A stretch of 64,000 bases of DNA from Methanosphaera sp. ISO3-F5 (lineage in GTDB: Archaea; Methanobacteriota; Methanobacteria; Methanobacteriales; Methanobacteriaceae): assembly GCF_034480035.2 (NCBI RefSeq), contig NZ_CP118753.2, positions 457,001-521,000 on the forward strand, in the 5' to 3' direction. The position numbers were made by a program, and so were the translations under genes. Below, piece after piece: positions 13,411 to 58,645 of the stretch; within the stretch, counting starts at the first letter, position 1, and each line of letters starts with the position of its first letter. The notes beneath the pieces are model-generated. The model was not told the origin of the DNA. It saw only the letters and a program-made list of their open reading frames with translations, and searched no databases.

Positions 13411-14304
13411 TTAAGATTTTAATTCTTTAATATCTTCAGGATATTTACCAAGAATACGTTCCATTATTGACATCTTTTTGATTTCTGCGAACATAACATT
13501 GTACTTTTTATTTTCATTTTGAACATCATTGAATTCTTCATGTAATTTGTTTAAATTTTCTACTATATGTTTATAATCACTTCTTGCTGTTCTAGTGTCT
13601 TTTTGTTGTTGTTTTAATTCTTCTGTTAATGTTTTCAATGATTCATTTAAAACAGTATTTTCATTTTTTAAATTTTCATATAACTCTTCTAAGTTATCGT
13701 ACTGTTTTTGAAGTAATTCTTTTTCTCTTAGAGGTATATCAGAGTTTCCTTTTAATTTTATGTTTTCTTCGGTTAGTTTGTGATTGTTTTCTTCAATTGT
13801 TTTATTTTGATCTTCTAGTTTTTTGTTCTCTTTTTCTAGTTGTTCTATTTTTTCTAAGGTTTCATGTAATTTTGAATCAGTGTTTTCTTTATTATTTTTT
13901 ATAATTTTTAGTTGATTATTTTCTTCAGTAATTTTTTTATTTGCTTGTTCTGACTCATTTAACTTATTTTTGATATCAGAATTATTTGACTTTAATATTT
14001 TATTTTCATTATTTAATAGTGAAATCTTATTATTTAGGTCTGCTACTTCTTTATCTAAAATATTATTTTTTTCTTGTATATCATGTAACTTATTTTCGTC
14101 TATTTCTATCTTTTCTTTTAAAGTAGTAATTTCCTGTTTTAATATTTCATATTCGTTAATGTCTATTAACTTATCTTCATTATATGCTACTAATATACTT
14201 TCTAATGCTTCACCAATTTTAATTCCTTTAGTTTCAGCATTTTTTTTAAACTTATGCCATTCTTCAATATTTTTAATTCGTGCAGTAGCTTGACCAGATG
14301 TCAT
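13411..14304 (-). CDS. Predicted ribbon-helix-helix DNA-binding protein with long coiled coil
   Basis: Residues 1-45 (TARIKN, then EEWHKFKKNAETKGI and KIGEALESILVAY) have the strand-helix-turn-helix shape of a ribbon-helix-helix DNA-binding domain. From about residue 45 to 280 the protein is an almost unbroken Glu/Lys/Asn/Leu coiled coil (LKEKIEIDENKLHDIQEKN and similar). A short C-terminal segment ends GKYPEDIKELKS. The family was not recognised. The gene reads out of a 0.7-kb field of GTTAAC palindromes, which could be its own binding sites. DNA-binding domain plus long coiled coil is the plan of some plasmid-partition and chromosome-organising proteins, but that role is inference. Confidence 0.7.
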   Translation of the reverse strand: MTSGQATARIKNIEEWHKFKKNAETKGIKIGEALESILVAYNEDKLIDINEYEILKQEITTLKEKIEIDENKLHDIQEKNNILDKEVADLNNKISLLNNENKILKSNNSDIKNKLNESEQANKKITEENNQLKIIKNNKENTDSKLHETLEKIEQLEKENKKLEDQNKTIEENNHKLTEENIKLKGNSDIPLREKELLQKQYDNLEELYENLKNENTVLNESLKTLTEELKQQQKDTRTARSDYKHIVENLNKLHEEFNDVQNENKKYNVMFAEIKKMSIMERILGKYPEDIKELKS

Positions 14305-14346
14305 AATAATTCACCATTAGCTAAATTAATTATATTAAAAAATAGT

Positions 14347-15045
14347 GTTAACATATGTTTTACTTTTTGTTAACAGGAAATGGTATGTTAACAATTTGTT
14401 AACAATTATTTATCTTTTAAAGTATACTGATATTATATTGTATCTGTGAACCTTTGTTCTATCTGTACTCAATCTAGTTACCTTTTTTATAAATATTTTT
14501 TTAGTTAACATCTTGTTAACATTTCTTTCTTGTAACTAAGTTTGTGAGTACTACTATATAAATGTTGTTAACAAATGTTTTCAAAATGTTTTATAATATT
14601 AACATAACTTTTTATTTTTAAAACATCTTGTTATCATATGTTATCACTAAAATTATTGTTAACATTTTGTTAACATTATATTTTTAGATCTATTTTTAAT
14701 ACTTTATATCCTACTTACGTTCTATTTACTCTATTTACATAAAGTTAACTTTTGTTAACAATTAACTTTTTTTTCCATCATAACATATACTCTGATTTTA
14801 TATGCTCCATAATTGTTAACAAACTTAAAACGTTTTGTTAATCTTATTTAACTATTTGTAAACTTTTTTTAATATATGTTTTGATAAAATTATTTAGTTA
14901 ACATATTTGATGTCTTTGTTAACTTTTTAAAATATTTGGTTATCAATTTACATTGCAAATATACTAAAAATAACTTATATTTTAATATTTAAGGGGAGAT
15001 GATATTACAAAATGTCATGTTTTATTGATGTTTTCATTTGTTAAC
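14347..15045. repeat. Field of 15 GTTAAC palindromes (consensus TGTTAACA)
   Basis: Exact GTTAAC begins at 14347, 14369, 14387, 14398, 14504, 14515, 14567, 14658, 14669, 14744, 14754, 14815, 14897, 14918 and 15040. Eleven of these extend to TGTTAACA. Near matches GTTATC (14630, 14640, 14939) and GTTAAT (14836) add to the field. At about 20% GC, 0.2 copies would be expected in this length. Several neighbours are 10-11 bp apart, and others 21-22 bp, which is one or two helical turns. The 764-bp gap between 14304 and 15069 holds no gene. Confidence 0.85.
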
Positions 15046-15068
15046 ATAATAAAAAAAATAGTTAAATA

Positions 15069-16238
15069 TTAATTAGGTAAGGTTATATAATCTTCTAATT
15101 TAATATTTTTTGATATTGCTTTTTCTTTATTTTTTGGTGACATAAATAATGCTAAATCAGCATAATTATACTGAGCTTTTTTCAATGAATCAATTATTGT
15201 TGAAACTTCGGTTAAAGGTTTCAATCCATCTGATGTTTCTACTTGAACATTCATTTTTTTATAAGATAATTCTTCTGGCATATCTATTATAACTTCTTCA
15301 GGTTTTATATCTAATTTCTTAGCTATTTCTTCTTCTGCTTCTGTTAAATATTTTTCATCCATTTCTACTATTGCTGATGGATCATTGAATTGGGCTAAGT
15401 TTATAGTATCTGTTTTCTTATATAACTGTCGAGTATCTAAATTTTTCATAGTTTGTTCTGGTAATCCTTTTGTATTTCTAGTAATATTTATTAAATCACC
15501 ATCATCCAAATACCTTAATTCTTCCTCAGTAACAGTTCCATCTTCTAATAATCGTGACAATGACACTTTGAACATACTATTGACAATTCTTGTTGTATGA
15601 TGTTGGTATACTGTAGGATACATAAAATATCTTGCAAGTAATGTTGATTCAGCTGCTTGAACTCCTTTTGGTGTAAGTACAAGTTTGTCTTCATTATATG
15701 TTAAACTGTATATTAATCGTTCAGTATCTATTACGCCATATGCAACACCAGTATAATAGGAATCTCTTGCTAAGTAGTCCATTCGATCTACATCTAAATC
15801 TCCAGATATTATCTTACCAAATTTTGTTTTTCCATCAACAATATTGTTTATAAGTTTTACATCAAATTGTTCTTCAATAATATCGGTGATGCTTGAATTT
15901 GCTATTATTTCTTTGGTCACATATTCATGTTTGTGTTTTAATGCTTTTTCTGATACGTGTGAAAATGGTGAATGTCCTATATCATGTAATAATCCACATA
16001 CTCGTAGTAATGATATTACTTCATTGTCTAATCCTAATGTTTGTCCTACTTTGTTTGCTAAGTATAATGTTCCTATAGAATGTTCAAAACGTGTATGATT
16101 AGCACCAGGATACACTAAGTTTGTGAAACCTAATTGTTTTATTCTTCTTAGTCTTTGCATTTCAACAGTATCAATAATTTTTAATTCAAAATCGGTTAAA
16201 TGCAAGTCACCATGAATACTATCTCGTATAAATCCCAT
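15069..16238 (-). CDS. HD-domain phosphohydrolase (dGTPase-like)
   Basis: This protein of about 389 residues has the HD signature RFEHSIGTLYLANKV near 50 and LLHDIGHSPFSH near 84-95, with the later DLDVDRMDYLARD. Such proteins hydrolyse phosphate esters of nucleotides, often dNTPs. The exact substrate is unknown. The ATG at 16238 (MGFIRDSIHGDL) is preferred to an upstream TTG at 16247 because GAGAG is better placed and the family starts there. It is cotranscribed behind nadM with an 18-bp gap. Confidence 0.85.
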   Translation of the reverse strand: MGFIRDSIHGDLHLTDFELKIIDTVEMQRLRRIKQLGFTNLVYPGANHTRFEHSIGTLYLANKVGQTLGLDNEVISLLRVCGLLHDIGHSPFSHVSEKALKHKHEYVTKEIIANSSITDIIEEQFDVKLINNIVDGKTKFGKIISGDLDVDRMDYLARDSYYTGVAYGVIDTERLIYSLTYNEDKLVLTPKGVQAAESTLLARYFMYPTVYQHHTTRIVNSMFKVSLSRLLEDGTVTEEELRYLDDGDLINITRNTKGLPEQTMKNLDTRQLYKKTDTINLAQFNDPSAIVEMDEKYLTEAEEEIAKKLDIKPEEVIIDMPEELSYKKMNVQVETSDGLKPLTEVSTIIDSLKKAQYNYADLALFMSPKNKEKAISKNIKLEDYITLPN

Positions 16239-37889: not shown

Positions 37890-39547
37890 CAATGCTGTCA
37901 AGTTAAGATAGTTTTTGTGTGAAATTTTTTTTGTCTCGTGTTTTTTTTTAAAATGATCTTTTATTGTTGTCTGAGAATTTGTGTCCGTAATCTACTGGTT
38001 CTCTGTTGGTTGATTTGATTTCTTTTTTTATGGGTATTAGGTGTTTTTGTAGTATTTTGATTATTTTTGTTATTGTTTGTTGTTGTTTTTCTTTATCAGT
38101 GTTTATGAGGTTTAGTAATTCTTTTTTTACCAGTCCTACTGCGATGTTGAAGTTTGCTTGGTAGTCCTTGTATTTGTATTTTTTATTGTTTCTTCGTTTT
38201 TGTTCTATTTCTTGGTTTACATCATGTTTTACTATTGTTGCTATGTTGAATACGTATATATCTGAGTAGAAGTCTTGTTCTATTATGATTTTTCTTCTTC
38301 CGCTGAAGTTTTCAGTTTGTAGTTTGTTTTTTAGTTTGTCATAACTGGTTTCAATTCCCCATCTTTTGTTGTATATCATTTTAAAGTCATCTATTGTAAT
38401 TGTTTTATCAAAAACATTTGTTGCAAGGGTTTCTATTTCTCCAGATGATAAGGGGATGGTTATTATTCGTATTTTTATTTTATCTTGCTTTTTTGCTAAT
38501 TCTTTTATTTCATTATCTGATATTCTTCTCAGGTAATCTTTATCAATTGGTACTTCTATTATTTCATCATCAGTAGTTATATTTTCTCTTTGTTCTATGA
38601 ATGTGTCTTTTTTAAGACGTATTATAAAAAATGAGTTTAAATCCATTGTTTTTAAAATTAAATCTTTGGAAGGATATCCTCTATCATATATTGTTATTGT
38701 CTTCTTAAGATCTATTTTATCTTTAGCATCTTCCAAATGGTTAATAGCATGCTTAACTTCACCATATTTTCTGTTACTAATAGCAGAACTAATGATAAAT
38801 TCATTAAGTACATCAACCATAGTGGAAACCCTAGCTGTAGAAGTATGGTGGGAATGATTATTATCTTCAATATCAAAATCTTCACGAACAGTAGGATAAT
38901 TAGGTAAATCAAATATCGAACCATCACCAGCAGTTAAATAAAAACCTTTGAAAGTTTTCAACTCTTCAGGTCTCCTATAAATTTCCCGTATTAACTCATC
39001 ATTAATATCAATATATGCTTGAGGATTAATAATCATCCTCCTTTGAGAAATAGCTTGCTTAGAAACATCCATATCCAATTCACCCCAATATTCCTCCATA
39101 AAATACAAAGCTTCCAAAGCAGTCGTACGGCCACGATTCCAAAGAATATACTTCATAATACATTCCGGAGGCAACTTACGATTACGAAGTTTATTATCAA
39201 CTAAAATATATTTATCACAAACATAACTATTAAAATTTCCCATACTATCTAATAAAACATTACCTAAAGACATTAAAAACACCAAAATACTATCAATCAA
39301 ATCCACATAAATTAATAATAAAAAATAAAAATAAATCATGTGTAAATTAATTAAACAATATTATATAGTTCATAATATATAAAAATAACTATAATTAATA
39401 CTTAAAAACTAGTATAGACAAATAGATACTTATAATATTTAATATAATTAAATAATAAATAGAATTAAGTAAATTTAAAGTAAAAATAAGTTATAATATA
39501 AAAATAAAAGAAAATTATGTTAGAAAAACCTTAACTTGACAGCATTG
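37890..39547 (-). mobile_element. IS4-family element, copy 1 (1658 bp)
   Basis: The ends are 18-bp perfect inverted repeats, CAATGCTGTCAAGTTAAG. ATTTTTTTC at 37881-37889 is repeated at 39548-39556, a 9-bp target duplication. The same element, same length and orientation, is at 52993-54650. Confidence 0.95.
37948..39339 (-). CDS. IS4-family transposase, copy 1
   Basis: The 463-residue transposase has DDE residues (GDGSIFDLP near 135; IYDRGYPSKDL near 218) and the exact IS4 signature Y-x2-R-x3-E-x6-K in YNKRWGIETSYDKLK near 330. The N-terminus is hydrophobic (MIYFYFLLLIYVDLIDS), so the true start could be the internal MGNFNSYV. Its protein is identical to copy 2, so transposition or gene conversion was recent. 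The frame is intact. Confidence 0.95.
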   Translation of the reverse strand: MIYFYFLLLIYVDLIDSILVFLMSLGNVLLDSMGNFNSYVCDKYILVDNKLRNRKLPPECIMKYILWNRGRTTALEALYFMEEYWGELDMDVSKQAISQRRMIINPQAYIDINDELIREIYRRPEELKTFKGFYLTAGDGSIFDLPNYPTVREDFDIEDNNHSHHTSTARVSTMVDVLNEFIISSAISNRKYGEVKHAINHLEDAKDKIDLKKTITIYDRGYPSKDLILKTMDLNSFFIIRLKKDTFIEQRENITTDDEIIEVPIDKDYLRRISDNEIKELAKKQDKIKIRIITIPLSSGEIETLATNVFDKTITIDDFKMIYNKRWGIETSYDKLKNKLQTENFSGRRKIIIEQDFYSDIYVFNIATIVKHDVNQEIEQKRRNNKKYKYKDYQANFNIAVGLVKKELLNLINTDKEKQQQTITKIIKILQKHLIPIKKEIKSTNREPVDYGHKFSDNNKRSF

Positions 39548-50875: not shown

Positions 50876-52018
50876 TTAATTTTTAAGATATACATCTTGT
50901 AAAGCTGCAACACCGGCTCCAGCTTCAAAGTCAAATCCAAATTCTTTTAATGTCATTTCTAGACAGGTGAAAGTCATAGCTAATTCCTGTAAACCAGTAA
51001 TACCCATGTGACCTATTCTGAAAATGTTACCACTAAGGTGATCTTGACCACCAGCTAATTCAATTTGATATTTATCCCTCATAGTTCCGCGTAACTGTTT
51101 ATCAGTAACACCTTCAGGCATTTTAATACCAGTAAGAGTATTTGAATAATCACCTTCACGTGCAAATAATTCAAGACCTAATGCTTTTGCAGCTTCACGT
51201 GTAGCTTCAGCACCAGTGTGATGACGTTTGATACGAGCATCTAAGCCTTCTTCTAATACCATACTTAATGCTTCATTCATTGCATATGTCATTGATACAC
51301 TAGGAGTGTAAGGAGTTTGAGATTTAGCTCCACTTTTTCTCATTTTTTTCATATCAAGATAATAAGTAGGAGATTCTACTTTATCAACAACATTCCATGC
51401 ATCATCACTTAAAGTTAACATACTCATTCCAGGTGGTGCAGCAAGACATTTTTGTGAACCACTTAAACAAATATCCAAACCATATTCATCTACTTTAACA
51501 GTATCACCAGCAAGAGAAGAAACAGTGTCAACAACAAATAATGTATCATGATCTTTCATTATTTCTCCAACTTCTTTAATTGGATTAACTACAGCTGTTG
51601 AACTTTCATTGTGTATCATTGTTAAAGCTTTAGCATCATCGTTTTCTTCTACTACTCTTTTTATTTCAGCCGGATCTGCTGCTTGGCCCCAAGGTACAGT
51701 AACTTCGATAGATTCTCCACCAAATACTTCTGTTAATTGCTGAAGTCTTTCTCCAAATTTTCCTCCAACAACATTGATTACTTTATCACCTTTTTCAACA
51801 ATGTTTGCTATTGCAGCTTCCATTGCACTAGTACCGGAACCTGTTAATAAATATGATTTATTATCAGTTTGGAAAACTTCAGATAACATTGCTGTTGTTT
51901 CATCTAAAATTTCACCATATGCTGCTCCTCTATGATTTGTTATAGGTTGTGCCATTGCATCTAAAACCCTTTTTGGAACAGTTGTAGGTCCAGGAATCAT
52001 TAATAATATGTCTTCCAT
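50876..52018 (-). CDS. Class V aminotransferase (alanine-glyoxylate/serine-pyruvate type)
   Basis: The 380-residue PLP enzyme begins LLMIPGPTTVPKRVLDAM, has TGSGTSAMEAAIANI near 60, DTVSSLAGD with the PLP aspartate near 177, and the Schiff-base lysine in SGSQKCLAAPPG near 193. In methanogens such enzymes may make serine or glyoxylate-linked amino acids. The exact amino donor is not decided by sequence. The ATG follows GGAGGAATATTCCC. Confidence 0.9.
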   Translation of the reverse strand: MEDILLMIPGPTTVPKRVLDAMAQPITNHRGAAYGEILDETTAMLSEVFQTDNKSYLLTGSGTSAMEAAIANIVEKGDKVINVVGGKFGERLQQLTEVFGGESIEVTVPWGQAADPAEIKRVVEENDDAKALTMIHNESSTAVVNPIKEVGEIMKDHDTLFVVDTVSSLAGDTVKVDEYGLDICLSGSQKCLAAPPGMSMLTLSDDAWNVVDKVESPTYYLDMKKMRKSGAKSQTPYTPSVSMTYAMNEALSMVLEEGLDARIKRHHTGAEATREAAKALGLELFAREGDYSNTLTGIKMPEGVTDKQLRGTMRDKYQIELAGGQDHLSGNIFRIGHMGITGLQELAMTFTCLEMTLKEFGFDFEAGAGVAALQDVYLKN

Positions 52019-52742
52019 TGGGAATATTCCTCCAAAAATATATTTTCATAAACGTTTATTAAAATATAATAAGAATAGTAAAACATACTTAGTATATCTT
52101 AAGTATAACTAAACTTACTATAATTATACTTATGTCTTTAATACTTTTTTAATTTATCATAAGATTGTTCGCTAAAACTCATTTTTATTAAAAAATTTAC
52201 ATTTTAAAACATACTTTATTTTAACTAATTTTAAACATTATATTTTAACAACATTTAATTCTACTTAAATTCAGTTCACATCTCTTAAATTTTATAATAA
52301 TCACAGTTTAACTTTCTATATCTCATAAAAATCCTATTAAATTAAGTATAAACTTATATGCTACATATAACATAATTAACATTAAAAACAGAAATTATCA
52401 TGTTATTCATTTCTAATTATAGATAGTAAAAAGTAACAATAAGACAAAATCAATAGTTAAAACTAATGAATTGCATAAATTTTTCCCGTACTTTATTTAA
52501 TAAATTTAATTCTACTTCGAAAGTACTAAATCCAATTATACAACAATTCAAAATTGAATCTCAGCTTACTTTCACATAAAATATTACAAGTTGAATTCAC
52601 ATCCTCATTAATAAATATTCCGGCACCTGATTTCTATAATCCTCTTTTGATCTGATTCCTTAGAATTCACACTTCTTTTTGTTTATAATGGTTGTATAGT
52701 GTTGTAAGGGAGTTTAGGGAACTATTATATGATTCGAATTTT
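52019..52742. other. 724-bp C-rich, gene-free stretch before the repeat array
   Basis: No open frame, RNA or known motif was seen. The first part holds the promoter of the 50876 gene. From about 52261 to 52680 the plus strand has roughly 70 C to 26 G by hand count, and the bias reverses at about 52680 where the G/T-rich array begins. Confidence 0.5.
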
Positions 52743-52992
52743 GTATTTACATATACTATTTTCTATTAATTTTGGGTAAGTGTATTTACACTTTTTAATT
52801 TTTGATATTATTAGTAAAGTGTATTTACATTATTGAAATATTTGGTATTTTCTATTATTGTATTTACATATGTGTTGTATTTACACTTTTATCAATTCAG
52901 CATATTTGTTTAAGTGTATTTACATTTTATTAAAATAGGTATAATTCTTAAAGTGTATTTACATATTGTATTTACATTATACTATTTTCTAT
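52743..52992 (+). repeat. TGTATTTACA box array, part 1 (before the IS)
   Basis: Boxes GTATTTACA start at 52743, 52782, 52821, 52860, 52877, 52916, 52955 and 52968. Steps are 39, 39, 39, 17, 39, 39 and 13 bp. Joined across the IS the next step is 40 bp. The box is preceded by T in every case, giving TGTATTTACA, whose outer TGTA/TACA arms are inverted. No gene is present. Confidence 0.9.
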
Positions 52993-54650
52993 CAATGCTG
53001 TCAAGTTAAGATAGTTTTTGTGTGAAATTTTTTTTGTCTCGTGTTTTTTTTTAAAATGATCTTTTATTGTTGTCTGAGAATTTGTGTCCGTAATCTACTG
53101 GTTCTCTGTTGGTTGATTTGATTTCTTTTTTTATGGGTATTAGGTGTTTTTGTAGTATTTTGATTATTTTTGTTATTGTTTGTTGTTGTTTTTCTTTATC
53201 AGTGTTTATGAGGTTTAGTAATTCTTTTTTTACCAGTCCTACTGCGATGTTGAAGTTTGCTTGGTAGTCCTTGTATTTGTATTTTTTATTGTTTCTTCGT
53301 TTTTGTTCTATTTCTTGGTTTACATCATGTTTTACTATTGTTGCTATGTTGAATACGTATATATCTGAGTAGAAGTCTTGTTCTATTATGATTTTTCTTC
53401 TTCCGCTGAAGTTTTCAGTTTGTAGTTTGTTTTTTAGTTTGTCATAACTGGTTTCAATTCCCCATCTTTTGTTGTATATCATTTTAAAGTCATCTATTGT
53501 AATTGTTTTATCAAAAACATTTGTTGCAAGGGTTTCTATTTCTCCAGATGATAAGGGGATGGTTATTATTCGTATTTTTATTTTATCTTGCTTTTTTGCT
53601 AATTCTTTTATTTCATTATCTGATATTCTTCTCAGGTAATCTTTATCAATTGGTACTTCTATTATTTCATCATCAGTAGTTATATTTTCTCTTTGTTCTA
53701 TGAATGTGTCTTTTTTAAGACGTATTATAAAAAATGAGTTTAAATCCATTGTTTTTAAAATTAAATCTTTGGAAGGATATCCTCTATCATATATTGTTAT
53801 TGTCTTCTTAAGATCTATTTTATCTTTAGCATCTTCCAAATGGTTAATAGCATGCTTAACTTCACCATATTTTCTGTTACTAATAGCAGAACTAATGATA
53901 AATTCATTAAGTACATCAACCATAGTGGAAACCCTAGCTGTAGAAGTATGGTGGGAATGATTATTATCTTCAATATCAAAATCTTCACGAACAGTAGGAT
54001 AATTAGGTAAATCAAATATCGAACCATCACCAGCAGTTAAATAAAAACCTTTGAAAGTTTTCAACTCTTCAGGTCTCCTATAAATTTCCCGTATTAACTC
54101 ATCATTAATATCAATATATGCTTGAGGATTAATAATCATCCTCCTTTGAGAAATAGCTTGCTTAGAAACATCCATATCCAATTCACCCCAATATTCCTCC
54201 ATAAAATACAAAGCTTCCAAAGCAGTCGTACGGCCACGATTCCAAAGAATATACTTCATAATACATTCCGGAGGCAACTTACGATTACGAAGTTTATTAT
54301 CAACTAAAATATATTTATCACAAACATAACTATTAAAATTTCCCATACTATCTAATAAAACATTACCTAAAGACATTAAAAACACCAAAATACTATCAAT
54401 CAAATCCACATAAATTAATAATAAAAAATAAAAATAAATCATGTGTAAATTAATTAAACAATATTATATAGTTCATAATATATAAAAATAACTATAATTA
54501 ATACTTAAAAACTAGTATAGACAAATAGATACTTATAATATTTAATATAATTAAATAATAAATAGAATTAAGTAAATTTAAAGTAAAAATAAGTTATAAT
54601 ATAAAAATAAAAGAAAATTATGTTAGAAAAACCTTAACTTGACAGCATTG
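52993..54650 (-). mobile_element. IS4-family element, copy 2 (1658 bp), inside the array
   Basis: Same 18-bp inverted repeats (CAATGCTGTCAAGTTAAG), length and orientation as copy 1. ATTTTCTAT at 52984-52992 is repeated at 54651-54659 (9-bp target duplication). The uninterrupted target is present in the duplicate at 55096-55337, which proves the insertion point. Confidence 0.95.
53051..54442 (-). CDS. IS4-family transposase, copy 2
   Basis: The protein (463 residues) is identical to the 37948 copy, including the DDE residues and the Y-x2-R-x3-E-x6-K signature in YNKRWGIETSYDKLK. The frame is intact. The coding strand is T/G-rich in its 5' half and A/C-rich in its 3' half. Confidence 0.95.
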   Translation of the reverse strand: MIYFYFLLLIYVDLIDSILVFLMSLGNVLLDSMGNFNSYVCDKYILVDNKLRNRKLPPECIMKYILWNRGRTTALEALYFMEEYWGELDMDVSKQAISQRRMIINPQAYIDINDELIREIYRRPEELKTFKGFYLTAGDGSIFDLPNYPTVREDFDIEDNNHSHHTSTARVSTMVDVLNEFIISSAISNRKYGEVKHAINHLEDAKDKIDLKKTITIYDRGYPSKDLILKTMDLNSFFIIRLKKDTFIEQRENITTDDEIIEVPIDKDYLRRISDNEIKELAKKQDKIKIRIITIPLSSGEIETLATNVFDKTITIDDFKMIYNKRWGIETSYDKLKNKLQTENFSGRRKIIIEQDFYSDIYVFNIATIVKHDVNQEIEQKRRNNKKYKYKDYQANFNIAVGLVKKELLNLINTDKEKQQQTITKIIKILQKHLIPIKKEIKSTNREPVDYGHKFSDNNKRSF

Positions 54651-54659
54651 ATTTTCTAT

Positions 54660-55846
54660 TAATTTTGGGTAAGTGTATTTACACTTTTTAATTTTTGATA
54701 TTATTAGTAAAGTGTATTTACATTATTGTTATAGTTAATGATTCTATCCTGTTTATTGTCTATGTTGTGTTATGTGGTACTTCGTGTTGATGATTATGGT
54801 ATGTATTTACACTATTGATTTTTATGTTAATTTTCTTAGGTGTATTTACAATAGTGATGTATTTACATTATTGAAATATTTGGTATTTTCTATTATTGTA
54901 TTTACATTATTAGTGTATTTACATTTTCTTAAAATAGGTGTAATTCTTAATGTGTATTTACATCATGTATGTATTTACACTTTTTAATTTTTGATATTAT
55001 TTGTGAAGTGTATTTACATTATTGTTGTTGTGGGTATTTCATGTTTTATTTGGTGGTGTTGTCTTCTGTATGTGTTTATCATTTATTGTTTAAATGTGTA
55101 TTTACATTATTGAAATATTTGGTATTTTCTATTATTGTATTTACATATGTGTTGTATTTACACTTTTATCAATTCAGCATATTTGTTTAAGTGTATTTAC
55201 ATTTTATTAAAATAGGTATAATTCTTAAAGTGTATTTACATATTGTATTTACATTATACTATTTTCTATTAATTTTGGGTAAGTGTATTTACACTTTTTA
55301 ATTTTTTATATTATTAGTAAAGTGTATTTACATTATTAGTGTATTTACATTTTCTTAAAATAGGTGTAATTCTTAATGTGTATTTACATCATGTATGTAT
55401 TTACACTTTTTAATTTTTGATATTATTTGTGAAGTGTATTTACATTATTGTTGTTGTGGGTATTTCATGTTTTATTTGGTGGTGTTGTCTTCTGTATGTG
55501 TTTATCAATTATTGTTTAAATGTGTATTTACATTATTGAAATATTTGGTATTTTCTATTATTGTATTTACATTATTAGTGTATTTACATTTTCTTAAAAT
55601 AGGTATAATTCTTAATGTGTATTTACATCATGTATGTATTTACACTTTCTAATTTTTGATATTATTTGTGAAGTGTATTTACATTATTTGTGTATTTACA
55701 TTTTCTTAAAATAAGTATAATTCTTAAAGTGTATTTACACAGGTATTGTATTTACAATTTATAGTATGTTGAATTGGTTAAAATGTATTTACAGTGTATT
55801 GTATTTACACTTTGTAAACTTATTTTAATTTTAATTTTGTATTTAT
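54660..55846 (+). repeat. TGTATTTACA box array, part 2
   Basis: Thirty-three GTATTTACA boxes run from 54675 to 55801, with a degenerate one at 55838. Steps are nearly all 39 (rarely 37 or 40) or 17 (rarely 16 or 13) bp, often alternating, with three longer gaps of 88-89 bp (54714-54803, 55010-55098, 55436-55524). The 30-bp stretches between boxes come from a small set that recurs. All boxes point the same way. The plus strand is rich in T and G. Confidence 0.92.
55096..55337 (+). repeat. 242-bp direct repeat (copy of 52819-54727 without the IS)
   Basis: This segment matches 52819-52992 joined to 54660-54727 with one visible mismatch. It holds the same eight boxes at the same steps (39, 17, 39, 39, 13, 40, 39). 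It carries the empty target of the IS. A second, overlapping duplication relates 54898-55145 to 55324-55571 (248 bp, offset 426, one visible mismatch). Confidence 0.9.
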
Positions 55847-55904
55847 ACTAATGTTGATCCTTATTTATTTAACAAATCTATAAAATGTATTGGACCGGTA
55901 AATT

Positions 55905-56785
55905 GTATATACATTGTTGGTTGTTGTGCTTTTTTTTGGGTTTTGTATATACGGTATTGTTGTGTATATACATTACTCTATTGTTTGTTGTTTTGTGGTG
56001 TTTGTATATACAGTTTTGTTGTGTTCATGAAATTGTTGTATATACAGTGTTGGTTGTTGTGATTTTTTATGGTTTTTGTATATACAGTGTAATTTGTATA
56101 TACATTATCTGTTATGTGATATTTTGTGGTTGTTGTATATACAGTTTTGTTGTGTTCATGAAATTGTTGTATATGCAGTGTTGGTTGTTGTGCTTTTTTT
56201 TGGGTTTTGTATATACAATATTGTTGTGTATATACATTAATCCTTTGTTTGTTGTTTTATGGTTGTTGTATATACATTTGTATATGATTTTTTCTTTATT
56301 GTATATACAATGCTACTTGTTGTTCTTTTTATGGGTTTTGTATATACGGTGTATTGTGTATATACGTTAAGGTGTTGTTTTGTTGTTTTGTTTTGTTGTA
56401 TATACAAAATTTTCTTTATGTATATACAAAAAACTTATTGTCTAGTTTTGTTATTATTGTATATACGGTGTAATTTGTATATACATTATCTGTTATGTGG
56501 TATTTTGTGTTTGTTGTATATACAGTTTTGTTGTGTTCATTAAATTATTGTATATACAATGCTACTTGTTATTCTTTTTTATGGGTTTTGTATATACGGT
56601 GTATTGTGTATATACATTAATGTTTTGTTTGTTGTTTTATGGTGGTTGTATATACAGTAGGGTCCTGTCTGTAATTGTTGTATATATATTATTGCTTGTT
56701 ATTTTTTTTATGGATATTGTATATATAGTGTAATTTGTATATACATTAATCTGTTATGTGATATTTTGTGGTTGTTGTATATACA
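55905..56785 (+). repeat. TGTATATACA box array in seven about 131-bp units
   Basis: About 29 boxes, 20 of them exact GTATATACA and the rest mostly one-base variants (GTATATACG, GTATATGCA, GTATATATA). Unit starts are 55905, 56038, 56169, 56301, 56420, 56550 and 56680. Within a unit the steps are about 40, 18, 40 and 33 bp. Each of the four spacer types is similar from unit to unit, for example the spacer after the first box contains GTTGGTTGTTGTG in units 1-3. The plus strand is strongly G/T-rich and gene-free. Confidence 0.92.
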
Positions 56786-56859
56786 AAATTTCACTCATGT
56801 TAAAAAATATGTTGTAAAATAAGGTATGTCTAATTTATGGAATGTGTTATATTATGATT

Positions 56860-57074
56860 GTATTTACAGTAATGCTATTTTATTAAATTGTTTAAAGTGT
56901 ATTTACAGCGTATCGTATTTACATTTAGTATATTTTGTAGTAGTTTTAATTTCTGTATTTACACTATACTGTATTTACACTTATGAACTTAGTTGTATTA
57001 TTTTCTTATTGTATTTACAGTTTCTTGTAAATACACTTGCCATAAATCTTTAAAATTAGTAAAGTGTATGTACA
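56860..57074 (+). repeat. TGTATTTACA box array, part 3
   Basis: Boxes start at 56860, 56899, 56915, 56955, 56971 and 57011, then GTAAATACA at 57027 and GTATGTACA at 57066. Steps are 39, 16, 40, 16, 40, 16 and 39 bp. The last two variants keep the spacing, which shows that the conserved element is the palindrome GTAnnTAC and not one fixed string. Confidence 0.88.
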
Positions 57075-57253
57075 CTAGTATATGTGCTGTGTTGTGTGTT
57101 GGTTTTTATAAATATTTGTTTAATGAAAAATAGTGTTGTTGTTATAAGTTAATGTAGATTATGATTTAAAAATAGTTTTTTTATGAAAGGGAATAAATAT
57201 ATGTTATTTTCTCTTCAATATAACATATACTTAATCGTGTTGTGTGACGAATA

Positions 57254-57451
57254 TTATAATGCTAATTTAATATCGTCGGCAGTGACTGTTTTACGTCCTG
57301 CGTGTTTTGTAAATTTATTAGCTTGAGCAGCTACTTCTTCTGCATATTCTTCAACAGCATCTGCTAGTGCTACTGCTGCATCGTCACTTACTCTTTCTGC
57401 ACCTGCTTCTTTGATGATTCTTTTTAGTGGTGCGATTGGTAATTCTGCCAT
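57254..57451 (-). CDS. Archaeal histone
   Basis: The 65-residue histone fold ([20 protein letters not shown], then [18 protein letters not shown]) is of HMf type. It dimerises and wraps DNA in extendable 30-bp steps. ATG after GGAGATAATGATATATT. The gene ends about 180 bp from the repeat array and is read towards it. It has no tails, as is normal. Confidence 0.97.
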
Positions 57452-57919
57452 AATATATCATTATCTCCTATAATTTTATTACTTATAATTATGAAAATAA
57501 GTCAGATTTTATAGTTTCTTTTTAATTATAATGGTTAATAAGGGTAATAATAATAAAAATAGTGATTTTTTTTTAAATTGGTTTTATTAGGATGATAAAT
57601 ATTATTATTCATAGATAATTCTATATATACACTTAACAAGTACAGTTTGTCATTAACATTTTAATATGGTTTATCAATGTTTTATCTTTTATTATATTTC
57701 ATCCAGTATAAAACATTAATTCTTTGGATATTGGTATATTTTAACTTTATAGTTTCATATTGGTGTTATTTTCATATATTGATCTTTTTAAACTAATGCT
57801 CTTTTTGAAAATAGTTTCTGAATGAAATGATTTATTTTTTCATTTTTTTAATAAAATCTAATAGTTTTGAATGAAAGAAATAGTATTGTTATTTTAATTT
57901 TTTTTTATGGTGGTTTGGA
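57452..57919. other. 468-bp promoter gap between histone and mptE
   Basis: The genes are divergent. The gap is AT-rich with the histone promoter near 57480-57530 and the mptE upstream region on the right. No open frame or repeat box was seen. Confidence 0.5.
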
Positions 57920-58645
57920 TTGTATAATGATTGGGAAATTTGGTATGATTTAATTGTTGATGATTTTTCATTTAGTAAAGATGATGATATTGTGTCGGCT
58001 CAACTTTTGGATGAGAAAATTGATAAAGTTGGAAAATATGATTTGTCACATATAGATTTAGCACATAAATCAATAGTGTTTGGGGCAGGACCTTCAATTA
58101 AAAAACATATATCTTATCTTAAACGTAATGTTAACTTTAAAGATTATATTTTAATTGCAGCTGATGGTGCAACAACGGCATTACTTGAAGAGGATATAAT
58201 TCCTGATATGATAGTTACTGATTTGGATGGCAAAATAGAAAGTATTATTGATTCAAATAAAAAAGGATCAGTATTGTATGTTCATGCACATGGGGATAAT
58301 ATGGAAAAAATTGAGGAATACTTGGATAAATTGGATAAAATAATACCTACCTGTCAATGTAAACCTTTTGGAAACTTGGAAAATTATGGTGGTTTTACGG
58401 ATGGGGATCGTGCAGTGCATATAGCAACATATTCTTTAAAGTCAGAACAGATAATTCTTGCAGGTATGGATTTTGGTAATATTATAACTAATTATTCTAG
58501 GCCGGAAATAGGTGTTAAATTACAAAAAGCTGATTCTTTTAAAGAAAAAAAGTTATGTTATGCTGAAAAACTGGTTAATTCATTAAAAAAAGAAAATGTC
58601 CAAATTGAATATATTAATTTGAATTCATCAATTTGGATTCCGTAA
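57920..58645 (+). CDS. mptE: 6-hydroxymethyl-7,8-dihydropterin pyrophosphokinase (archaeal MptE type)
   Basis: MptE activates the pterin for tetrahydromethanopterin synthesis. The 241-residue DUF115 protein shows VFGAGPSIKKHI near 53-64, IAADGATTALLEEDIIPDMIV near 80-100 with VTDLDG, VHAHGDN near 120 and FTDGDRAVH near 162. It begins with TTG after GGTGGTTTGGA. It is a single gene and another methanogen marker. Confidence 0.93.
   Translation: MYNDWEIWYDLIVDDFSFSKDDDIVSAQLLDEKIDKVGKYDLSHIDLAHKSIVFGAGPSIKKHISYLKRNVNFKDYILIAADGATTALLEEDIIPDMIVTDLDGKIESIIDSNKKGSVLYVHAHGDNMEKIEEYLDKLDKIIPTCQCKPFGNLENYGGFTDGDRAVHIATYSLKSEQIILAGMDFGNIITNYSRPEIGVKLQKADSFKEKKLCYAEKLVNSLKKENVQIEYINLNSSIWIP

Follow-up and report, generated by a model that had tools for sequence, protein, structure and literature searches.

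KfrA of the IncU plasmid RA3 is an alpha-helical coiled-coil protein; it polymerises, has a repetitive operator as its binding site and is needed for stable plasmid maintenance (PMC7783346). In plasmid R388, a DNA-binding protein, StbA, and its cis repeats, the stbDRs, confer segregational stability, with the ATPase StbB being dispensable (PMC3098194). In the type II partition systems of R1, pSK41 and pCW3, the ribbon-helix-helix (RHH) adaptor ParR sits on a repeat array, parC, which acts as the centromere and differs between plasmids (PMC9426499), and in archaeal chromosome partition by SegAB, an RHH protein binds palindromes, with a 13-bp motif (TCTAGASTCTAGA) and 46 scattered chromosomal sites (PMC12284271). 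In most archaea, gut methanogens included, the segregation of chromosomes and megaplasmids is largely unknown. Here, we describe an array of TGTAnnTACA palindromes (boxes) in Methanosphaera sp. ISO3-F5, the genome of which (G000; 2,680,162 bp) consists of two contigs, C1 (2,506,044 bp) and C2 (174,118 bp); since this genome has been described as a chromosome and a megaplasmid (PMC11008217), C2 is the megaplasmid. The window, that is, the whole 64-kb stretch analysed, corresponds to C1:457001-521000, and the array to C1:509742-514075. We favour, with confidence evenly poised between yes and no, the reading that the array derives from a centromere-like maintenance locus of megaplasmid-type elements, of which the chromosome has taken up a copy, now truncated, and that dimers of RHH coiled-coil proteins bind the boxes of this locus.

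In related loci, the arrays adjoin genes for two proteins, RHH198 and P458, in which an N-terminus with an RHH-like pattern is followed by a coiled coil. Both have the architecture of KfrA (an N-terminal DNA-binding pattern and a long coiled coil) and its linkage to an operator, a likeness of working and not of family membership. KfrA, too, is a plasmid-encoded coiled-coil protein with a repetitive operator near its gene and without an NTPase of its own (PMC7783346). However, KfrA is bacterial and has a single operator region and no kilobase arrays, and RA3 also has a ParA/ParB pair (IncC/KorB). StbA and the stbDRs resemble the present locus, on the reading favoured here, in combining a DNA-binding protein with cis repeats and in giving stability without requiring an ATPase, but the stbDRs are 9-bp direct repeats 2 bp apart, whereas the boxes are palindromes at 39/17 bp, and no long coiled coil is described for StbA in the accessible part of the source (PMC3098194). 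R1 ParR uses 11-bp repeats (PMC9426499), and C2 likewise has 11-bp repeats before the gene of a P458 relative, P324. In contrast to the palindromes found here, ParR/parC has direct repeats and an actin-like motor, ParM; no ParM was identified among the open reading frames (ORFs) read in contigs C7, C66 and C177 and in C2 100-121 kb, the profile search covering selected ORFs only. SegAB offers an archaeal RHH protein on palindromes in a segregation context, but its sites are scattered and form no array, and its partner SegA is of the ParA type (PMC12284271). The SegB motif TCTAGASTCTAGA is not matched by the TGTAnnTACA box, and a deviant Walker A, as in type I partition and SegAB, was also not seen among the Walker-motif ORFs of loci L018, L090, L019 and L020, judged by motif only. 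Our literature search, outside which most subscription papers lie, returned no paper joining Methanosphaera with ribbon-helix-helix proteins and nothing matching on archaeal plasmid partition. Arrays of a centromere-like or maintenance type that go with coiled-coil DNA-binding proteins are a known kind; we found no description of them in an archaeal group or with a two-class spacing rule.

Results

Strict TGTAnnTACA boxes number 68 within window positions 52742-57075 and only 2 in the remainder of the window, and the array count rises to 74 when one end base is left free. Dinucleotide shuffles of the array freed of its insertion sequence (IS) gave a mean of 0.6 boxes and a maximum of 4, and a pattern search found the pair pattern of the array at this site only in the 2.68-Mb genome. 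Among intervals of at most 60 bp, 58 of 65 measure 16-19 or 38-40 bp (random placement: mean 17%, maximum 45%), as do 59 of all 73 intervals after IS removal. The spacing is out of phase with the 10.5-bp helical repeat, and a lattice of ~19 bp fits better. These counts bear out the quantised palindrome array that a sequence-only reading of this DNA had proposed. The array and the IS are laid out as follows.

52742-52977, plus strand: left part of the array, with 8 TGTATTTACA boxes (sequence reading)
52993-54650, minus strand: IS within one 40-bp array unit, recognised by terminal inverted repeats, length and second copy
54674-55810, plus strand: TGTATTTACA block with segmental duplications, in units of 39 + 17 bp (sequence reading)
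55904-56785, plus strand: TGTATATACA block, with 39-40-bp pairs joined by 18-19 or 33-34 bp
56859-57075, plus strand: right end, with TGTATTTACA boxes at 39-40/16 bp, the last boxes being TGTAAATACA and TGTATGTACA

The array runs unbroken from 52742 to 57075. The sequence-only reading had placed the spacing rule in 52743-55801 and 56860-57066; the rule does hold there, but the middle block also obeys it, with extra steps of 33-34 bp. The IS is 1658 bp long, with an 18-bp terminal inverted repeat and a 9-bp target duplication, ATTTTCTAT, read from the flanks. Taking out 1667 bp (IS plus duplication) restores a 40-bp box spacing, so that the claimed continuity of the rule across the IS stands. 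The transposase ORF (53051-54442; DDE_Tnp_1, Pfam PF01609, E 9.4e-14) lies inside the array, which can accordingly be called gene-free only outside the IS. A second full-length copy of this IS (1658 bp) is present at window 37890-39547. The two-fold symmetry of the site was upheld, but its centre is not wholly free as had been supposed: the central dinucleotides of the window boxes are TT (46), TA (20), AA (1) and TG (1), and those of relatives are mostly AA.

The window array contains segmental duplications of up to 300 bp at 94% identity and block-wise box variants. Between copies inside it, boxes diverge by 9% and spacers by 36%, and between the window array and the chromosomal array of a conspecific metagenome-assembled genome (MAG), G010, by 12% and 37%, respectively; because boxes served in part as seeds for the alignments, this contrast is an upper estimate. 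Two candidate interpretations were rejected. A hidden box midway in the 39-bp interval finds no consistent signal in the window spacers, and a clustered regularly interspaced short palindromic repeat (CRISPR) array is at odds with the 10-bp palindromes, two spacing classes, duplicated spacers and lack of a cas gene among the ORFs around the array. An Rfam scan of window 52000-58500 gave no match; the RNA fold over the array region is strong (z -6.5), as repeated palindromes would lead one to expect, and there was no further sign of an RNA.

The array locus in the ISO3-F5 chromosome is an insertion. The genes for an AGT aminotransferase (50876-52018) and an mptE-like protein (57920-58645) are divergent neighbours in 15 other Methanosphaera genomes, where the gap between them is ~200-300 bp and, in one genome, even smaller. 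Homology to these empty sites stops near 52156 and restarts near 57890, and the insertion between the two genes contains the array, the IS and a histone gene.

52157-57890, no strand: inserted segment of ~5.7 kb, ends approximate, from comparison with the empty sites of 15 genomes
57254-57451, minus strand: gene for an archaeal histone of 65 aa, part of the insertion; its product shares 82% identity with the megaplasmid C2 histone

The G000 genome holds 13 matches to this histone, 44-100% identical to it, and a second Orc1/Cdc6 gene lies at C1:537962-538165, on the right-hand side of the array and 24 kb from it.

In G010 (locus L020), the left junction is identical in position, with 91% identity across window 52019-52976, and the insertion does not stop at the histone gene but goes on with genes for a 69-aa protein, an AbrB-like protein, PriL and PriS. 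By this comparison, the ISO3-F5 insertion seems to be what is left of a longer insert, the remainder of which was probably deleted after the insertion event. The window array has 74 boxes vs ~22 in G010, the short-read assembly of which may have collapsed repeats; the large window array suggests recent expansion and not decay. Absence or scrambling of the array in every close relative had been named as an argument against its significance; this is not what the relatives show, since the array is absent at the orthologous site in 15 genomes but present in the conspecific MAG (G010), on G010 contig C66 and on contig C7 of the genome G017.

On G010:C66 and G017:C7, the order is histone, array, RHH198 (minus strand), array, P458 (plus strand) and P64/P193/RHH206, with TGTAAATACA boxes. 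Both contigs have the same box class and the same 38-40/16-19-bp spacing, and spacing enrichment is present in every main array tested, these two included. The 28-30-bp spacers of the one contig are unrelated to those of the other, and neither set is related to those of the window; therefore, simple tandem-repeat descent is ruled out as the cause of the spacing. On this comparison of loci, the conserved features are the box and the spacing. The recurrence of both among unrelated spacers, beside RHH-like coiled-coil genes at two loci, gives good support to the earlier proposal of a site suited to a dimeric DNA-binding protein. Across 139 genomes of the family, the TGTAnnTACA array was found in 3; two of these also have RHH198, each time less than 3 kb away from an array, and genomes without the array lack RHH198 (Fisher p 3e-4, uncorrected for relatedness). 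The array-bearing 30-kb contig G017:C7 also carries CRISPR-Cas-like genes (L090:8649-14545) and a large restriction-like gene (L090:14961-17930), both named from sequence only.

The megaplasmid provides a counterpart to the insert. Read in reverse, the G010 insertion matches the C2 gene order PriS (minus), PriL (minus), AbrB (plus) and, further along, histone (plus) and array, with protein identities of 65% (PriL), 75% (PriS) and 56% (AbrB). The C2 locus itself runs from the histone gene through an array, a gene for a 192-aa RHH-like coiled-coil protein and 11-bp tandem repeats to P324 (324 aa) and an array; the box block past the P324 gene is the third on C2. The 192-aa protein has an RHH-like start and is a weak P193 relative (BLASTP E 3e-4, single comparison). 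On C2, TGTGCTACA or the complementary sequence serves as the box, and the block in which the pattern is clearest (C2 120.1-120.7 kb) has steps of 18-20 and 38-40 bp; a weak central box sits in several of the longer steps, and in many of those of 38-39 bp, and the C2 lattice is therefore nearly filled. From the shared gene order and the counterparts on C2, C7 and C66, it follows that the window array represents one portion of a conserved locus, its array, and that the break lies within that portion. Each of the five loci (window, G010:C177, G010:C66, G017:C7 and C2) has a histone gene next to its array. Arrays of TGTAGCACA/TGTGCTACA boxes lie, on the 18-20/38-40-bp lattice, at C2 112.4-116.7 and 120.1-120.7 kb around the histone and coiled-coil genes, and the 11-bp tandem repeats (ATCTTACCTCA-like) at C2 118125-118720 (L045), directly before P324, have similar counterparts close to the relative in genome G006 (L029). 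PLSDB plasmids gave no match, whether searched at the DNA level or with the RHH198 and PriL proteins, and IMG/VR, searched with RHH198, P458 and PriS, gave no relative.

The P458 family is nearly confined to Methanosphaera, to which 16 of the 17 genomes with a match belong. Its chromosomal member in the window (13411-14304; 297 aa; locus 13411-15069) is preceded, within 765 bp, by 15 GTTAAC sites, mostly TGTTAACA, and in at least five Methanosphaera species the intervals between such sites are multiples of ~10.3 bp (mean cosine 0.73, null maximum 0.35). The corresponding loci in genomes G002, G003 and G016 carry 8, 9 and 12 ATGTnnACAT boxes instead. These loci support the idea that coiled-coil proteins are in general paired with palindrome arrays of their own, although the same scan showed no palindrome to be enriched at the P458 relatives of G008 and G004. 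Two IMG/VR contigs, which are probably actinobacterial phages (L073:1683-1795 and L074:5715-5827), each have an RHH-like gene immediately preceded by five boxes of the TGTAGCTACA type, spaced 38-39/18-19/12/34 bp; in L074, this gene matches the PHROG Arc-like (RHH) repressor family (E 7.5e-7). These boxes before an Arc-like repressor gene lend support to the RHH reading of the N-termini of the array-linked coiled-coil proteins.

Discussion

The favoured reading of a truncated maintenance locus draws on direct observations: the insertion, the synteny, the conserved box and spacing among free spacers, and the linkage to protein genes. The full locus would comprise a histone gene, a palindrome array, a divergent RHH198-type gene, more repeats and a P458-type gene. 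We infer that the coiled-coil proteins are RHH proteins and that they bind the boxes. One RHH dimer would be seated on each palindrome, and the alternating 39/17-bp spacing would set the relative placement of adjacent dimers. The long coiled coils could then project from the DNA and link one box with another, with a sister copy or with other DNA. Such an assembly might pair, cluster or anchor the replicon for inheritance, comparably to bacterial KfrA or StbA. Partition or segregation as the outcome is the least certain part of the reading. In ISO3-F5, the insert lacks the replication and protein genes, so the array would be an orphan or would have its protein supplied in trans; without RHH198, it is either a relic, a decoy or a site bound by another protein.

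Several points weigh against this reading. ISO3-F5, the holder of the largest array, has no RHH198 in its genome, so that the cognate protein is missing or different, and the co-occurrence statistic for RHH198 and the array comes from three genomes that are related to one another. The G010 assembly is a MAG, and C66 and C7 are contigs that may or may not be plasmids. No Pfam RHH model exceeded the cut-off for the N-termini, the best being NikA-like at E 0.0014; AlphaFold2 models of these N-termini are of low confidence and without a strand, and the model of RHH198 is a long helix with no Foldseek match in the PDB. The partial seeding of the divergence alignments on boxes biases the comparison of boxes with spacers. 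Finally, a motif search of C2 ORFs of at least 80 aa found no ParA-type KGGxGK[ST] motif, so partition, if real, may run without one.

Among other explanations, the boxes might constitute an operator array on which the coiled-coil proteins act as repressors or silencers of their own genes, of the histone gene or of large stretches of the element, in the manner of xenogeneic silencers and possibly together with the histone. The arrays do flank the promoters from which the RHH198, P458 and histone genes are divergently transcribed, and the phage TGTAGCTACA boxes stand directly before a repressor gene; however, ~20-70 boxes over 1-3 kb go far beyond the needs of autoregulation, the window and G010:C177 arrays persist without an adjoining regulator gene, and the third C2 box block lies beyond the P324 gene, all of which leaves this explanation unlikely. 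An iteron-like array for replication control, binding an initiator or copy-control protein and captured on the chromosome as a plasmid origin, would fit the tandem repeats typical of plasmid origins, the PriL and PriS genes that adjoin the array in G010:C177 and lie near it on C2, and the second Orc1/Cdc6 gene 24 kb away. Yet the genes between the arrays encode coiled-coil proteins and no initiator-type protein, and the minimum of the cumulative GC skew of C2 falls near 164 kb, near the MCM gene at record position 1, whereas the arrays are at 112-121 kb. The first Orc1/Cdc6 gene is at C1:862 and the second starts at C1:537962, neither of them at the array (C1:509742-514075). These skew and gene positions make an origin less likely, and we regard it as decidedly improbable.

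A satellite produced solely through unequal recombination or some process related to the IS, with a spacing inherited from an ancestral unit and without any protein bound to it, would account for the recent segmental duplications in the window array (up to 300 bp, 94% identical), its 74 boxes vs ~22 and its block-wise variants. It is disfavoured, and we give it little credence, since box and spacing are kept although C7, C66 and the window have mutually unrelated spacers, box divergence is about one quarter of spacer divergence (in the partly box-seeded alignments), and C2 combines a different box with similar spacing. Of the functions that the sequence-only reading had listed, partition or anchoring is now the best supported, while an origin or terminus element and a mere satellite have lost ground. 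That reading had recognised neither that the array and the histone gene were inserted nor that they resemble a truncated megaplasmid-type locus. It had also linked the array, as a speculation, to the adjacent histone gene. A histone dimer footprint is generally quoted as roughly 30 bp; the 29-bp gap between boxes could thus seat one dimer, the boxes positioning archaeal nucleosomes in a histone-phased chromatin element. The adjacency is more than coincidence, as the histone gene recurs beside the array in window, C177, C66, C7 and C2, but nothing shows that histones read the spacing. Archaeal histones bind DNA with little sequence specificity, the 10-bp palindrome is to our knowledge no histone signal, 11 of the 13 G000 histone loci have no known array beside them, and palindromes in genome G001 (below) are spaced differently, in 31-bp pairs; a chromatin element of this kind is speculative and very improbable.

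A broader proposal, which we advance tentatively and consider doubtful at present, is that an RHH-like coiled-coil family of Methanosphaera, each member with its own palindrome array and with box and spacing varying by replicon, forms a ParA-independent system of replicon identity and segregation in archaea, with chromosomal and plasmid members. The replicon-specific boxes would be TGTAnnTACA (spacing 39/17 bp), TGTGCTACA (spacing 18-20/38-40 bp), the chromosomal TGTTAACA, spaced in phase with the helix, and ATGTnnACAT in other species. If centromere-like sites and coiled-coil proteins do operate without a ParA motor, they would provide a concrete DNA target and candidate proteins for segregation in Methanobacteriales, as well as cis-elements for stable plasmids in this order. 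Box sequences co-varying with replicon type would amount to a natural code for replicon identity and incompatibility.

Two further palindrome sites were noted. In Clostridium psychrophilum (L017:4488-4515), a match of two TGTAAATACA boxes before a citrate-synthase-like gene was set aside as probably an ordinary operator doublet. On contig C31 of G001 (L052:6376-7200), twelve 16-bp palindromes, TGTAWWACGTWWTACA, stand in strict 31-bp pairs, and a distant RHH198 relative is encoded ~2 kb away; the rest of the 18-kb locus has no such palindrome, which we count in favour of the maintenance-locus reading. The region also has genes for a tyrosine integrase and an ERF-family recombinase.

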